A stretch of 64,000 nt of DNA from Devosia submarina (GTDB lineage Bacteria > Pseudomonadota > Alphaproteobacteria > Rhizobiales > Devosiaceae). Location of the stretch: the NCBI RefSeq assembly GCF_003056345.1, contig NZ_PYWB01000004.1:248001-312000 (forward strand), read 5' to 3'. This document shows positions 59,559-64,000 of this stretch, one piece after another. The notes beneath the pieces are model-generated. The model was not told the origin of the DNA. It saw nothing but the letters and a program-made list of their open reading frames with translations, and did not search any database. A program made the translations under genes and the position numbers. Position 1 is the first letter of the stretch. Every line of letters starts with the position of its first letter.

Positions 59559-59633
59559 GCGGGTGTAGCTCAGGGGTAGAGCATAACCTTGCCAAGGTTA
59601 GGGTCGTGGGTTCGAATCCCATCGCCCGCTCCA
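59559..59633 (+). tRNA. tRNA-Gly (anticodon GCC)
   Basis: A 75-base cloverleaf with encoded CCA. The acceptor stem GCGGGTG pairs with CGCCCGC (one G-T). The D arm has GGGG, the anticodon loop is TTGCCAA with GCC at 59591-59593, and the T arm is GTGGGTTCGAATCCCAT. It marks the boundary of the putative integrated element; the 3' half is a typical attachment core. Confidence 0.97.
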
Positions 59634-59662
59634 AAAACTGGTTGTTTATCAGCCACTAAACA

Positions 59663-59688
59663 AAAGGCTCGCTTCGGCGGGCCTTTTT
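59663..59688 (+). terminator. Terminator of tRNA-Gly
   Basis: AAAGGCTCGC pairs with GCGGGCCTTT (one G-T) around a TTCG tetraloop, followed by TTGTTTT. It lies 30 bases after the tRNA CCA. Confidence 0.85.
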
Positions 59689-59697
59689 GTTTTCTTC

Positions 59698-59719
59698 TTG
59701 GGGGCCGCTTGGGGGCCGC
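59698..59719. repeat. Tandem 11-base repeat in the putative attachment region
   Basis: CTTGGGGGCCG occurs twice in direct contact, 65 bases past the tRNA. It could be an arm-type recombinase or excisionase site, or chance. Confidence 0.45.
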
Positions 59720-59773
59720 ATTGTTCGGTCATGGATCCTGTGTATCATCGGGGAGCATAGGTGGGGCTGAATC

Positions 59774-60658
59774 ATGCGAAGTAACCTAGGAGGGCTTCCA
59801 ACGCTTGCGACTTTCGTTGAAAATGCACGTCAGGCTTTTAGCCCGAGCGTGTCTGAGTGGATGGGCCAGTCCTCGACCAGCGTTAAGAATGAAGCATGGC
59901 TCTTAAGTTATGTTTTAGATGCGCTAGCTTTAGGGGAGGTCCGGTGCGTGGTCCCTATAAAGATTCCAGCCTGTCGCAACGACCAACCTCAAACCGCCTC
60001 CGGTGTGATTCGCCTAGAACTACCTTCTGTTGAAGATGCAGACCTCACGTGGCAGGCACCAAACCCGAGTAAAGACGTCAAAGACGACGATCTTGATGAC
60101 GACGATGTCGAGCCTATTGGTGGCCCAGTTGACGGGCTTTTCATAGTTGAGGCTTCTTATTGGCAGGAGCACCGCGACACTCAGCCGTTGAAAACTGGTC
60201 TAGCTGATGTGCCTGCAAGTTATCTAACTGCATTACTAAAGAGCTTAGGGTCACGCTCGAACGTACGCACTCTCAACCAGCTACGACCTGACCTAAGCGA
60301 TCTTCAAGGATTGCCGCTTCGGGTTTTAGACGCCAATGCGTCTCTTGACGCGATTTTCCCCTTAGTTGAACTGACGGAGCCGAAGCGACGCTTCCCCGCG
60401 ATTATTTATAGGAGGCGGCTTCTATACGAATTACAGGCAGCGGCATGGCGGTACTTGGCGATAGCACAGCCGAAAGACCAACATGGGGTAGTCACTGACG
60501 TTTTTAACGCGCTCGTCGCGTACATTGACGCTATGGGCATCGATGAAGAGGAAGCTTCAACTCCTAAAGAGCATAGTCTCAGGAACTTGGCAGGTGCGGT
60601 GGTGAGGCAGTGGCGGGCAAAAAACCTGACTTCTCCTGTGCTACTCAGGGAACGTTGA
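59774..60658 (+). CDS. Unknown protein of a tRNA-linked element (294 residues)
   Basis: I do not recognise this protein. It starts MRSNLGGLPTLATFVENAR after GGTGGGG, has a very acidic stretch near residues 95-112 (DVKDDDLDDDDVEP), and a basic-aromatic segment RRFPAIIYRRRLLYELQAAAW near 210. No membrane helix, signal, zinc or nucleotide-binding motif is visible, and the Arg-His-Arg-Tyr pattern of tyrosine integrases is absent. Codon use differs from the upstream core genes. As the first gene behind the attachment site it may be cargo (for example defence) or an element-specific regulator; nothing here decides. Confidence 0.6.
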   Translation: MRSNLGGLPTLATFVENARQAFSPSVSEWMGQSSTSVKNEAWLLSYVLDALALGEVRCVVPIKIPACRNDQPQTASGVIRLELPSVEDADLTWQAPNPSKDVKDDDLDDDDVEPIGGPVDGLFIVEASYWQEHRDTQPLKTGLADVPASYLTALLKSLGSRSNVRTLNQLRPDLSDLQGLPLRVLDANASLDAIFPLVELTEPKRRFPAIIYRRRLLYELQAAAWRYLAIAQPKDQHGVVTDVFNALVAYIDAMGIDEEEASTPKEHSLRNLAGAVVRQWRAKNLTSPVLLRER

Positions 60659-60736
60659 CATTCATCCAACAGACTTTCGCGCATTTTGCAGCCGTGTTGG
60701 TTGGATTTTGCCATCCGACTGCGGTTCAATCAGCAC

Positions 60737-61030
60737 ATGAACAGCCAGCAACTTTCCAAAAAATTCCATTCTGTAGCCTACGCTTGCGACTTCTTTGATG
60801 TTGGTCGAACCACCTTCTATTCGCTCGTCAAACGCAAGATCATCAAGACTGCTAAGATTGGTCGTCGCACCGTCGTGACGACTGAAATGTTGGAGGAAGC
60901 TGCTGCCTTAATTGTTGCACTTTCCCTCACTGATGCTGCCGATAAGCCAGAAAACCCTACCTCGATACATCAGAGTGAAAGGACTGGTTCCAACGTGACC
61001 CCTGCCAGTGAGAGGGGCAGCCATGGGTGA
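60737..61030 (+). CDS. AlpA/excisionase-like HTH DNA-binding protein
   Basis: Protein of 97 residues. The N-terminal half has the MerR-type winged-helix pattern of AlpA/Xis proteins: SVAYACDFFDVGRTTFYSLVKRKIIKTAKIGRRTVVTTEMLEE. The rest is polar and may be a tail. In phage satellites AlpA turns on excision or replication genes. The ATG is the second of two; the earlier one lacks the HTH context. A TCCAACA/TGTTGGTTGGA dyad lies at about 60663-60705, upstream of the start, as a candidate operator. Its end overlaps the next gene by eight bases. Confidence 0.7.
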   Translation: MNSQQLSKKFHSVAYACDFFDVGRTTFYSLVKRKIIKTAKIGRRTVVTTEMLEEAAALIVALSLTDAADKPENPTSIHQSERTGSNVTPASERGSHG

Positions 61031-61520
61031 AGTTATTTTCGGTCGCTTCGGCAAACCGATTGATGATCAGCCACAAAGCCTGAAGGCTGGATTGCCGGTG
61101 AGTGCAACAGCAGTGGCTTCCCCGAACCTCTTTCACCACATAGCGGCGCTTGATTGCCGCTCCGCACTAGATAGGTTTGAACAAGCCGTAAGCGAGCGCC
61201 TGTTTGCGGCCATCCCCCTTGCGAACGCTCTCAAGCGCGACTCATGGGCATGGTACGACTTCCAAGACCTGCTCAAAGATCATGGTTTGAAGGCGCCCAT
61301 AGACGCGGACTTACCGGATGCGCTGTACCATGTGATCCGGTGGACGATGCGTGACATCAAAGGTTGGTCTGACAATATGAGCCGCGAATGCTGTTCGGAC
61401 ATCCAGTTTCGCCAATCGCTTATACTGTCTGAGCCAGAAGATCACGACGAACTCACCTCAGCGGACATCGCCCATATTCTCGAATGGGCACGTTTCTTCC
61501 GCCGCAAGAAAAGCGACTAG
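61023..61520 (+). CDS. Unknown protein of the element (165 residues)
   Basis: A soluble, mixed-charge protein with no recognised domain. Segments such as RDSWAWYDFQDLLKDHGLKAPIDADLPDALYHVIRWTMRDIKGWSDNMSR and the C-terminal SADIAHILEWARFFRRKKSD look helical. GAGAGGGG precedes the ATG by six bases. It overlaps the AlpA-like gene by eight bases, so it is translated from the same mRNA and probably acts in the element's replication or regulation module. Confidence 0.6.
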   Translation: MGEVIFGRFGKPIDDQPQSLKAGLPVSATAVASPNLFHHIAALDCRSALDRFEQAVSERLFAAIPLANALKRDSWAWYDFQDLLKDHGLKAPIDADLPDALYHVIRWTMRDIKGWSDNMSRECCSDIQFRQSLILSEPEDHDELTSADIAHILEWARFFRRKKSD

Positions 61521-61549
61521 GCTCAACTAGGCAACGGCGGGGCAACCTA

Positions 61550-61571
61550 CCGCTCCCCGCTCCCCGCTTCC
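61550..61571. repeat. Iteron-like CCGCTCC repeats
   Basis: CCGCTCC occurs twice in tandem, followed by CCGCTTCC, in the only gap of the element, directly upstream of the Cys-rich Rep-like gene. They may be initiator-binding repeats. Confidence 0.4.
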
Positions 61572-61671
61572 CAATTCACCTGTGAAACTAACCAGCCGCT
61601 TCATTGCGGCATCGAGAGCGGCTGCCCTTTACTCCTCGGGTAAACGGCAGGGCCGCGACTGGAGACAACAA

Positions 61672-62520
61672 ATGCCACCAAAACGATATGCCGTTCCACC
61701 TCCCCCAGACTTTGAGTCCATCGAGGATGCCGCCGACCACGCTGCGATTATCATCAATGCGCTGCGTCGGCTGGCTTCGACCGAAGCGAACAGCCTTGCG
61801 GATAAACTCTTCGCCTGTGTTGATTACCAACCATGCGGCTCCGAAGCGTGCCCAGTATGCGTGCGCTCGTTTCGCAAGCGACTCCACTCAGGAGGGGTGA
61901 AAGCCGCACCTATCGGTGCTGGTTTCCTTGCCATGTCGCTCATCCCTGCTACTTGCCGGGTAGAAGTTGGGCAACTCTCAGCCGTTGACCTGAAAACATG
62001 GGTGACGAGCCGCCAGCGGGCTATCGCCCGCGCCCTGCCTGCCGAGGCCATGTTCTTCGGCGGCGTGGACATATCGTTGAACACCTTCAACAACGCCGAT
62101 CCGCACTGGTGCAAGCACCTTTACGGATACGTGATCCTGCCGCCAGCCTTCGACATTTTTAAGCGGTCTGTCCGTGATGGGATTCGGTCGGCGCTAAAGC
62201 GCCACTGCCCCCTGCATAATGGCGCATCGCGTTCACTGTTGTTGAGTGCGCGTGACCGCGCAACGTTCAATGCCAAGCTCCTGTATGCCTACAAGGCGAG
62301 GTTCTACCGGCGCTCGCAATACGGCGAAGTGAAGTGGAAGACCGGCAAGCGTTCTACGAACGTCGATGGTCAGTCGCTTCGTAGCGCCGAGGTCGCGGAA
62401 CTGGCGCTGTTCCTTGACCGGTTTCCACTTGGCTCCCGGCTCATACTGAAGGGTTTGCGCCGCCGTGGCCTACGTGGCGGCACTGGCCAATTCACCCTTG
62501 TTCGCGAGGTGAACTGGTGA
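61672..62520 (+). CDS. Cys-rich Rep-like protein of the element
   Basis: Protein of 282 residues. A zinc-ribbon-like cluster lies at residues 49-63 (C49, C55, C60, C63; CGSEACPVCVRSFR), followed by FFGGVDISLNTFNNADPHWCKHLYGYVILPP with an HWxxHLYG motif. This order, zinc ribbon then a beta-strand GVD and an H-rich strand, resembles replication initiators of small plasmids and phages, but the catalytic tyrosine cannot be assigned. I start it at the ATG with GGAGAC nine bases upstream; a GTG 90 bases earlier is possible. Rep role is tentative. Confidence 0.45.
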   Translation: MPPKRYAVPPPPDFESIEDAADHAAIIINALRRLASTEANSLADKLFACVDYQPCGSEACPVCVRSFRKRLHSGGVKAAPIGAGFLAMSLIPATCRVEVGQLSAVDLKTWVTSRQRAIARALPAEAMFFGGVDISLNTFNNADPHWCKHLYGYVILPPAFDIFKRSVRDGIRSALKRHCPLHNGASRSLLLSARDRATFNAKLLYAYKARFYRRSQYGEVKWKTGKRSTNVDGQSLRSAEVAELALFLDRFPLGSRLILKGLRRRGLRGGTGQFTLVREVNW

Positions 62521-62771
62521 TGGTCCATCATTTTTCTAGTCGTCACCAAACTTGGGTGAAAATGGCCGCGATGCGCCTAGGGGCCATGTTGGCGGTGTCG
62601 GTGGCCGTGTTGATGGCGTCGGGAGGGCTGTTGGCAAATGCCTCGTGCAACACTGCAAAGCTTACATCAACATGCAAACACCAGTTCGAAATCAGCGGGG
62701 GGAAGGGTGGGAACGTGGGTAATCCGCAACTCGCAGTGCCCACGCTTGGAGGTAATCATGTCTCAGCCTAA
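62520..62771 (+). CDS. Small protein with one membrane segment
   Basis: Protein of 83 residues starting in a TGATG overlap with the upstream stop. After a short polar N-terminus comes a hydrophobic stretch (MRLGAMLAVSVAVLMASGGLLA) that could be a signal or a membrane anchor. The tail is rich in Gly and Asn. Its 3' end overlaps the DUF927 gene by 14 bases, so both depend on one mRNA. Function unknown; it may be a small accessory protein of the element. Confidence 0.5.
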   Translation: MVHHFSSRHQTWVKMAAMRLGAMLAVSVAVLMASGGLLANASCNTAKLTSTCKHQFEISGGKGGNVGNPQLAVPTLGGNHVSA

Positions 62772-64000
62772 GAAGTTCACACCGGACAAAATGGCGACAG
62801 GCGGCAGCGTCCGCACTAAACTATCGGACACAGCCCCAGCGGGCATTTTGGACGCTGTCCGCGACCAGCATGGCGACCATTGGATACGCTATGGCACGTC
62901 GGACCGCGCGTTGTGGTTCTCACTCCCCGATCTCCAGCTTTCGCCTCAGTCCGTCTTCGGTCGCCTTGCAGGTCCCGGAATGGTTTTTCTAGCAACATCG
63001 ACCAAAAATCGTTTCATGAATCTGATTGAAGCGCATGAAGACTACCGCGAGGCATTGGTCGCGTCGCATCCAGGCTGGGTCGGCGGCGTGTATGTATATG
63101 GCAACGGCGAGTGTGAAGCCCAGTCCGATGATGATCGCCCTGTGATCGTAGGCTTCGAACCAAATCGTAAGTTCGACGCCTGTGGAACTCTGAAGGGGTG
63201 GAAGCAAGGTATTCACCCGCTCGTTCGCGGGCAAACTTTTCCGATGTTCGCGCTGGCGTACTCTTTCATTGGCCCATTGTTGCAGTTCGCCCCACCGGAT
63301 CTCCATAACCCACTTGTCGAGTTCGTTGGTGACCCCGGCACGGGCAAGTCAACTTTGGGTGTCATGGCCTCGTCGGTCTGGGGTGGTAATCCCGGCAGTG
63401 ATGTTGGGGGTGGTGAAAGCTGGAAGGTGACACTCAATTCACTAGATCCGATCAGGCGGACATACAGTGATTGCCAGCTTACCCTTGACGAGGGAAACTT
63501 GCTCGGCAGCAACCCAAGCGAACGCGGTGTGCTTCTGCAGATCGCAGTGTTTGCTCTGTTCAGCACCGAAGTAAAGCGCCGCTACACTGACAATGGTTCA
63601 ACAGACCATCTTCGGCACGCTACCCTGAGCACGACCAACCTGCCCGTAAGGGAACTCGTAGCAGCACGCGAGACGATTCAAGATGCAATCGAGCAGCGGA
63701 TGGTCACGATCATTCCAGAAAGCAAATTCGGGGTTTTGGACAGTCTGCCGCGCGGATTTACAAACTCGAGGGCTGTGATCGAAGCTCTTCGTAGCGCCAG
63801 TGATGCTGACTACGGGGTTGCGGGTCGCGAGTTCGTCCGCCGTTTGCAGCTCTGGAATAGCCACCCGCAGAACGACCTACCGGCAAGCGTGCGCCATCGA
63901 ATGAAACACTACGAAGCACATGCCCGCAGCCAGTCGGAACGCAGTCCGCCGCGGATCACAAAAACGTTCGCAATCACCTTCGCTGCCGGTTCGCTAGCGC
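62758..64000 (+). CDS. DUF927 domain NTPase (primase/helicase-type), C-terminus beyond window
   Basis: The first 414 residues are present, with no stop before the window ends. The DUF927 hallmarks are visible: GWKQGIHPLVRGQTFPMFALAYSFIGPLL, Walker A GDPGTGKS at 191-198, ASSVWGG just after, Walker B LTLDEGN at about 242-248. DUF927 proteins are phage, satellite and plasmid ATPases thought to act with primases in replication. GGAGG lies five bases before the ATG. The N-terminal 130 residues do not look like a primase. Confidence 0.85.
   Translation, partial: MSQPKKFTPDKMATGGSVRTKLSDTAPAGILDAVRDQHGDHWIRYGTSDRALWFSLPDLQLSPQSVFGRLAGPGMVFLATSTKNRFMNLIEAHEDYREALVASHPGWVGGVYVYGNGECEAQSDDDRPVIVGFEPNRKFDACGTLKGWKQGIHPLVRGQTFPMFALAYSFIGPLLQFAPPDLHNPLVEFVGDPGTGKSTLGVMASSVWGGNPGSDVGGGESWKVTLNSLDPIRRTYSDCQLTLDEGNLLGSNPSERGVLLQIAVFALFSTEVKRRYTDNGSTDHLRHATLSTTNLPVRELVAARETIQDAIEQRMVTIIPESKFGVLDSLPRGFTNSRAVIEALRSASDADYGVAGREFVRRLQLWNSHPQNDLPASVRHRMKHYEAHARSQSERSPPRITKTFAITFAAGSLA

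Follow-up and report, generated by a model that had tools for sequence, protein, structure and literature searches.

The DUF927 family is related to the initiator helicases of Staphylococcus aureus pathogenicity islands (SaPIs), and one of its members is described as a bona fide helicase, as far as the available portions of these reports go (PMC7581432, PMC5862659). A gene of this family lies at the end of the stretch of DNA analyzed here, 64,000 nucleotides of the Devosia submarina genome (hereafter the window; C34:248001-312000 in an assembly of 45 contigs and 3.98 Mb), where it follows the gene for a Rep-like protein in an element that is, we are highly confident, integrated and bounded by two attachment (att) copies, the first of them within a tRNA-Gly(GCC) gene. 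On balance we favor the reading that this is a genomic island, which extends from the tRNA gene across a contig break to the second att copy, likely excises as a circle, and would then be copied by predicted Rep-DUF927 rolling-circle replication. Islands integrated at tRNA genes are a kind already known; what may be new is the predicted Rep-DUF927 replication pair.

Several described systems resemble this locus in part. The SaPIbov1 Rep and SCCmec Cch islands are also integrative elements with a DUF927 helicase, but the Devosia island has a tyrosine integrase at a tRNA gene and a Rep-like protein adjoining the helicase, and a search confined to direct repeats of at least 14 nt found none behind its DUF927 gene outside the open reading frame (ORF) called ORF1, shorter iterons not having been searched for; iterons described for DUF927 initiator helicases can be as short as 5 nt in the portion of that literature at hand. 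Gram-negative and helper-embedded phage-inducible chromosomal islands (PICIs), in the sections available of PMC10111431, share with it an integrase, an AlpA-like regulator, a replication module, a doubled co-oriented motif and DUF927 filed as 'Primase'; the Devosia island differs from them in its size of about 35 kb, its far-end integrase, its large, probably anti-phage cargo and, in the 32 longer ORFs scanned, the lack of any Pfam match for a primase proper or for packaging. The islands MGIVchHai6 and MGIVflInd1 hold HTH_17 and DUF927 genes close together in a site-specific island as well, whereas no Rep-like gene is mentioned in the accessible part of their description (PMC7449626) and the target of the Devosia island is a tRNA gene. 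As for rolling-circle Reps, such as pMV158 RepB and the microvirus initiators, the Devosia protein has in common with them a conserved Asp, an HxH-like motif and a Tyr with Lys, and with the microvirus Rep also a cysteine motif; unlike them, its family mostly has Tyr in place of the second His, matches no curated family above cut-off and is coupled to a DUF927 helicase. In the DUF927 literature that we searched no description of a Rep-DUF927 replication pair was found, the term rolling circle occurring, in the text accessible, in reference lists only, and searches on DUF3768, on integrative rolling-circle HUH elements and on Kiwa islands in sphingomonads returned no papers.

The tRNA-Gly site and the two att copies

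When the genome was searched for the sequence at the window's end, a single other match came up, 54 of 54 bases on another contig (C2:10600-10653), and no far att site was found on C34 itself up to the contig end. Neither ARAGORN nor Rfam places a tRNA gene at this second copy and, given the ARAGORN result, we therefore take it to be the tail of the tRNA rather than a second gene. Directly after it stand a ATCTTCCC-hairpin and then a G+C-rich terminator-like stem, the same design that directly follows tRNA-Gly in several relatives of the genus (e.g., L011, L015, L019, L021); the terminator-like stem downstream of the window's tRNA is of a different kind. Gene order was also tried as a guide to the empty site, and was rejected: the 152-amino-acid gene beyond the far att copy does not lie within 1.5 kb of the relatives' tRNA, and lies elsewhere where it is found, so that the terminator hairpin was used in its place. 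Beside the far copy lies the gene of a tyrosine integrase (C2:10455-9223, 411 amino acids from an inner start that is 144 bp inside the copy; Pfam Phage_integrase 3.3e-15, Arm-DNA-bind_3 5.7e-17). The sequence-only reading, confined to the window, had claimed an element at this tRNA whose integrase does not sit at the tRNA end, and had suggested looking for a repeat of the tRNA 3' end and an integrase; both do occur, about 35 kb away if the contig join discussed below is right. A 21-bp doubled TTGGGGGCCG motif is found just behind the tRNA and just inside the far copy, and only in these two places in the sequence searched (the window, L003, L004 and L005); its two copies are likely arm sites for the integrase or for the AlpA-like protein.

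The comparison with relatives agrees with an insertion. The tRNA region could be matched in 61 of 61 genomes compared, and 30 tRNA loci were kept, the window's own included, 28 of them readable past the tRNA and 2 not. None of the 27 other readable loci of the genus shares the following 1.5 kb of DNA (blastn), and the Rep profile finds matches in 2 of 75 genus genomes, the window's own and G018 (43 positions only, with stops). A match over most of the length of Rep is absent from 74 of these 75 genomes and present in one, the window's own; the genes are not found at this place in relatives. One relative, G023, holds a different element of 12.4 kb at the same tRNA-Gly (L067/L068, C4:34318-46840), bounded by a second att copy with the same kind of terminator beyond it; it carries no Rep of the window's family, and its integrase, which we take to be P4-type, lies just inside the far att copy. 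More than one element thus uses this tRNA-Gly site, and both of those examined there have their integrase at the far end.

Composition changes at the same point, as had been noticed from the letters of the window: GC is 61.9% upstream of the tRNA (window 1-59558), 55.0% in the 23.8 kb of C34 that lie downstream of it, and similarly low, 53.7%, in C2:1-10599. The 12-mer CTCATGGTGAGC, a short repeat scattered through the chromosomal part of the window, has 11 copies before the tRNA (window 19198-50404) and none in the last 4.4 kb; the loss of chromosomal repeats that had been read as a further sign carries little weight, because less than one copy is expected there. Rfam found nothing besides the tRNA in L003:7400-20000.

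The two att copies lie on different contigs, and the end of C34 and the start of C2 consist of 127 bp of one insertion sequence (IS), of which a complete copy of 1,220 bp, encoding what is presumably an IS3-type transposase, lies at C12:2844-4063. This IS is present in several copies (in C12 and at ends of C2, C5, C13, C34 and C45) and breaks the assembly. CTC flanks it on both C34 (left) and C2 (right), matching a 3-bp target duplication; among the other ends, C45 (left) and C5 (right) have TTC, C13 has CTG with no partner, and the flanks in C12 are unlike. The simplest reading of these flanks is that the contigs join as C34-IS-C2 and, given that join, the element would measure 23,865 + 966 + 10,599 = 35,430 bp from core to core. 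An IS within the element, as the contig ends suggest, together with an ORF1 that has no relatives, might also fit a decayed, immobile defense island that was inserted long ago and keeps its replication genes as mere remnants; we hold this to be very improbable, as the integrase, AlpA-like, Rep and DUF927 frames are all open, the two att copies have not diverged at any of their 54 bases, and the DUF927 protein has both Walker motifs, A and B.

The Rep-like protein and its DUF927 partner

The Rep-like proteins combine a conserved Asp, an HxH or HxY motif, a YxxK Tyr and four cysteines and, in an alignment of 21 members, Y235 is found in 21 and HxH in 7, the window protein having HLY. The family is rare: 5.8 billion proteins yielded 14 members, counting the window's Rep, and a match was found in 1 of 72,556 plasmid records and, with the window's own genome counted, in 10 of the 397 genomes compared from the order and 6 of the 385 from the class, but in none of 50,697 phage records (E<=0.001) and not in a scan of viral contigs; relatives bear the names Azospirillum and Methylobacterium. 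The expectation that two or three proteins of the locus would match nothing held for ORF1 and very nearly for Rep. Nothing above cut-off was found for Rep in Pfam, NCBIfam or PHROGs, where the weak matches were HGWP (0.0014) and REP_ORF2-G2P (0.039), and its comparison by sequence with solved structures gave nothing at E<=0.1. A fused relative has a weak Rep_1 match (0.08), and weak profile and fold matches of Rep itself point to Rep proteins (pMV158 RepB, microvirus replication initiators). Four of the 18 loci examined below (in G330, G203, G536 and G703) have weak Rep matches only; they lack both a DUF927 match and a Rep ORF that covers the greater part of the profile.

The DUF927 protein has Walker A and B motifs (GTGKST and LTLDE), with the P-loop intact, and the profile of its family matches PDB entries 8tch, 'Pathogenicity island protein' (7.4e-18), and 5dgk, 'Active helicase' (3.3e-12), which we take to be the SaPI (SaPIbov1) Rep and the SCCmec Cch, respectively.

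The pairing of the two genes was examined in 18 loci (the one in the window, 9 from the order, 5 from the class and 3 from Methylobacterium), counting a Rep ORF if at least 216 of the 277 profile positions were matched; L073 is cut by a contig end. In all 14 of these 18 loci that have most of Rep, a DUF927 ORF follows it on the same strand, fused to it in one. Of the 13 DUF927 ORFs that stand apart from Rep, 6 had gone into the profile and 7 had not. The fused case, in G119 (L072:7957-10803), is a single ORF of 949 amino acids with Rep at its N-terminus and the DUF927 region behind, a region missed by the profile search, found just under the Pfam cut-off (2.4e-4), and matched in a profile comparison (2.5e-8). 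A fifteenth locus, on an Azospirillum plasmid, has integrase, Rep and DUF927 in this order. Among the 13 other pair loci, L069-L072 also hold relatives of both a 217-amino-acid protein and DUF3768, five (L074, L084, L085, L106, L108) have a relative of just one of them, and the remaining four have none. The Rep-DUF927 module, or the integrase that goes with it, has a tRNA gene beside it in four loci, L069 (Leu), L071 (Phe), L072 (Arg) and L073 (Thr); in L106 the tRNA gene (Glu) is about 2 kb away. No far att copies were found on the contig parts examined in G119, G419 and G095; contig C5 of G119 has two partial att copies (96%, 91%) and, by ARAGORN, no tRNA there. Copies of a tRNA-Ser tail of at least 14 and at least 16 bp in G232:C1:2441244-2472045, with an integrase gene just inside the first, suggest that elements lie there in tandem and that one carries the Rep-DUF927 pair.

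Other genes of the island and its possible means of spread

The co-directional set of genes that had been read behind the tRNA (ORF1, the HTH_17 protein, ORF3, Rep-like and DUF927) is indeed present (Table 1). ORF1 finds only itself among 5.8 billion proteins. The AlpA-like protein, with a helix-turn-helix (HTH) domain, matches HTH_17 and not the AlpA family, with only a weak PHROG excisionase match (0.015) besides and none in NCBIfam; it would be a regulator of excision and of early genes.

Table 1. Features at the tRNA end of the island, in window coordinates
Feature	Position	Strand	Basis
tRNA-Gly(gcc), integration target, left intact	59559..59633	+	ARAGORN; Rfam tRNA 68.9 bits
tRNA-side attachment core, 54 bp	59581..59634	+	identical copy at C2:10600-10653 (100% over 54 bases)
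Doubled TTGGGGGCCG motif, 21 bp	59698..59718	+	exact direct repeat, co-oriented copy at C2:10469-10489
ORF1, 294 aa, putative cargo or regulator	59774..60658	+	no Pfam at E<=1; PHROG terminase small subunit E 0.031 only
AlpA-like helix-turn-helix protein	60686..61030 (likely start 60737)	+	Pfam HTH_17 2.5e-7, 31.3 bits, cut-off 27
ORF3, 170 aa	61008..61520	+	no family above cut-off (Pfam, PHROG, NCBIfam)
Rep-like protein, predicted HUH-type nickase	61582..62520 (likely start 61672)	+	four-Cys motif, D163, H179-x-Y181, Y235-x-x-K238
DUF927 AAA+ helicase	62638..64000, likely start 62758, runs to C34:312458 beyond window	+	Pfam DUF927 3.9e-19

Directly behind DUF927 follows ORF361 (C34:312479-313564; L003:12479-13564), which has 427 relatives, 11 of which, once aligned, share a cysteine-rich tail with invariant cysteines and a G-x-G-x-K stretch, reminiscent of iron-sulphur DNA glycosylases. 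The cargo appears to be anti-phage in nature. A three-gene operon (C34:321964-327990; L004:1964-7990) encodes an MmeI-like methyltransferase (PDB MmeI 6.2e-132 from residue 87; Pfam MmeI_N at residues 1-159), a DEAD helicase and a T5orf172/GIY-YIG protein, the same gene order as in DnmA-YeeB-YeeC in the part of its description available (PMC9973331), the difference being that in Devosia it is one operon within a larger cargo. KwaA/KwaB (C2:4544-6029, L005), a probable Kiwa anti-phage pair, lies inside the element, as does Mrr (C2:8269-9192), and a metallo-beta-lactamase protein (C34:329948-331018; PADLOC PDC-M48B 2.6e-105) is an anti-phage candidate that adjoins a 245-amino-acid protein of no family, both within C34:329209-331018 (L004:9209-11018). 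Further cargo includes SocA/Panacea, HNH, NYN-LOTUS and superinfection-immunity-type proteins. The element thus probably carries several anti-phage systems, namely the DnmA-YeeB-YeeC-like operon, Kiwa, Mrr and the metallo-beta-lactamase candidate.

The module had been likened to phage satellites or integrative plasmids, a choice that the gene content settles only in part: Pfam finds no packaging family in the 32 longer ORFs, and the replication genes look plasmid- or SaPI-like. A phage satellite, P4-like or PICI-like, would replicate by its own helicase and be packaged by a helper phage, and integrase, AlpA-like HTH protein and replication ATPase are in fact the core plan of Gram-negative PICIs, in which, as far as the accessible text of PMC10111431 goes, DUF927 falls inside the 'Primase' family and, in the helper-embedded ones, a doubled co-oriented motif surrounds the att core. 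The window's DUF927 gene also has phage DNA primase as its PHROG match, by its helicase part only, and ORF1 the weak terminase match of Table 1. We nevertheless consider a satellite unlikely: Pfam recognizes neither a capsid nor a terminase nor a primase proper in the 32 longer ORFs (shorter ones being outside the scan), PHROGs give no head or packaging match at E<=0.01 in the 16 of these 32 that were compared, Rep has no relative in the phage records and viral contigs mentioned above, and 35 kb is large for a satellite. Slightly less likely still is an island mobilized by a conjugative plasmid, as an integrative mobilizable element or a mobilizable genomic island would be, in which Rep would be a relaxase-like nickase or an origin of transfer (oriT) would be present. 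HUH enzymes include relaxases, but the weak profile and fold matches of Rep point to Rep proteins, and the same Pfam scan of 32 longer ORFs shows no relaxase or secretion family, such as an integrative and conjugative element (ICE) would have, oriT itself not having been searched for. In favor of such an island, MGIVchHai6-like islands keep the HTH_17 gene, the DUF927 gene and xis together, in the portion of the source available (PMC7449626).

A proposed replication cycle and what it would mean

For the island as we read it, excision, nicking, replication and transfer are steps that we infer. Acting on the two att copies, the integrase and its AlpA-like helper would release a circle in which int, attP, alpA, rep and the DUF927 gene lie together; as int would come to lie next to alpA and rep in the circle, the integrase would only seem misplaced. 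Rep would then cut an origin with Tyr235, the metal being held by Asp163 and His179, and the DUF927 ATPase, akin to SaPI Rep and Cch, would unwind ahead of the host polymerase, host enzymes carrying out the synthesis. Copy number could thus rise before re-integration or transfer, while the anti-phage cargo would benefit the host. As the island has no recognized genes for transfer or packaging, it would need a helper to spread, either a plasmid or a phage.

That Rep and DUF927 act together in rolling-circle replication seems to us a reasonably good wager, and several points weigh against it. In the window's Rep a Tyr stands where HUH has its second His, and 3 of the 21 aligned members depart further. 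Foldseek against the PDB gave no match at E<=0.001 with either model, the best being unrelated ferredoxin-like folds (HPPK, CutA), the structure matches stay at Z <8, as high as unrelated folds can score, and the four viral-library Foldseek matches at E<=0.001 are all nameless. The window's own Rep family, taken without distant members, yields no microvirus match (A1, P 0.61), and a search for the origin that covered repeats of at least 14 nt found none convincing. The P-loop looks degenerate in the fused relative of G119. The C34-C2 join, for its part, rests on a 3-bp duplication, and other pairings of left and right IS ends exist. In MGIVchHai6, moreover, the DUF927 gene is dispensable for excision, mobilization and integration, according to the accessible part of PMC7449626, which counts against a necessary role of DUF927 in transfer and is silent on replication.

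More tentatively, and with rather less confidence than for the pair itself, the loci described here may represent a distinct and sparsely distributed class of integrative elements of alphaproteobacteria that copy themselves by rolling circle with two components, an HUH/HUY nickase plus an MCM-like DUF927 helicase, sometimes fused. The two would be a bacterial counterpart of the nickase-helicase Rep of small circular single-stranded DNA viruses, built from a different helicase, and would amplify tRNA-borne anti-phage islands. The island would be, in addition, another vehicle that packs several probable anti-phage systems together. If our reading of the pair is correct, DUF927 helicases, which are known in staphylococcal islands and are related there to self-loading initiators, would also pair with a separate nickase in alphaproteobacteria, which would explain how elements with no recognizable primase are copied after excision, and the Rep-DUF927 gene pair would become a marker for finding such islands.

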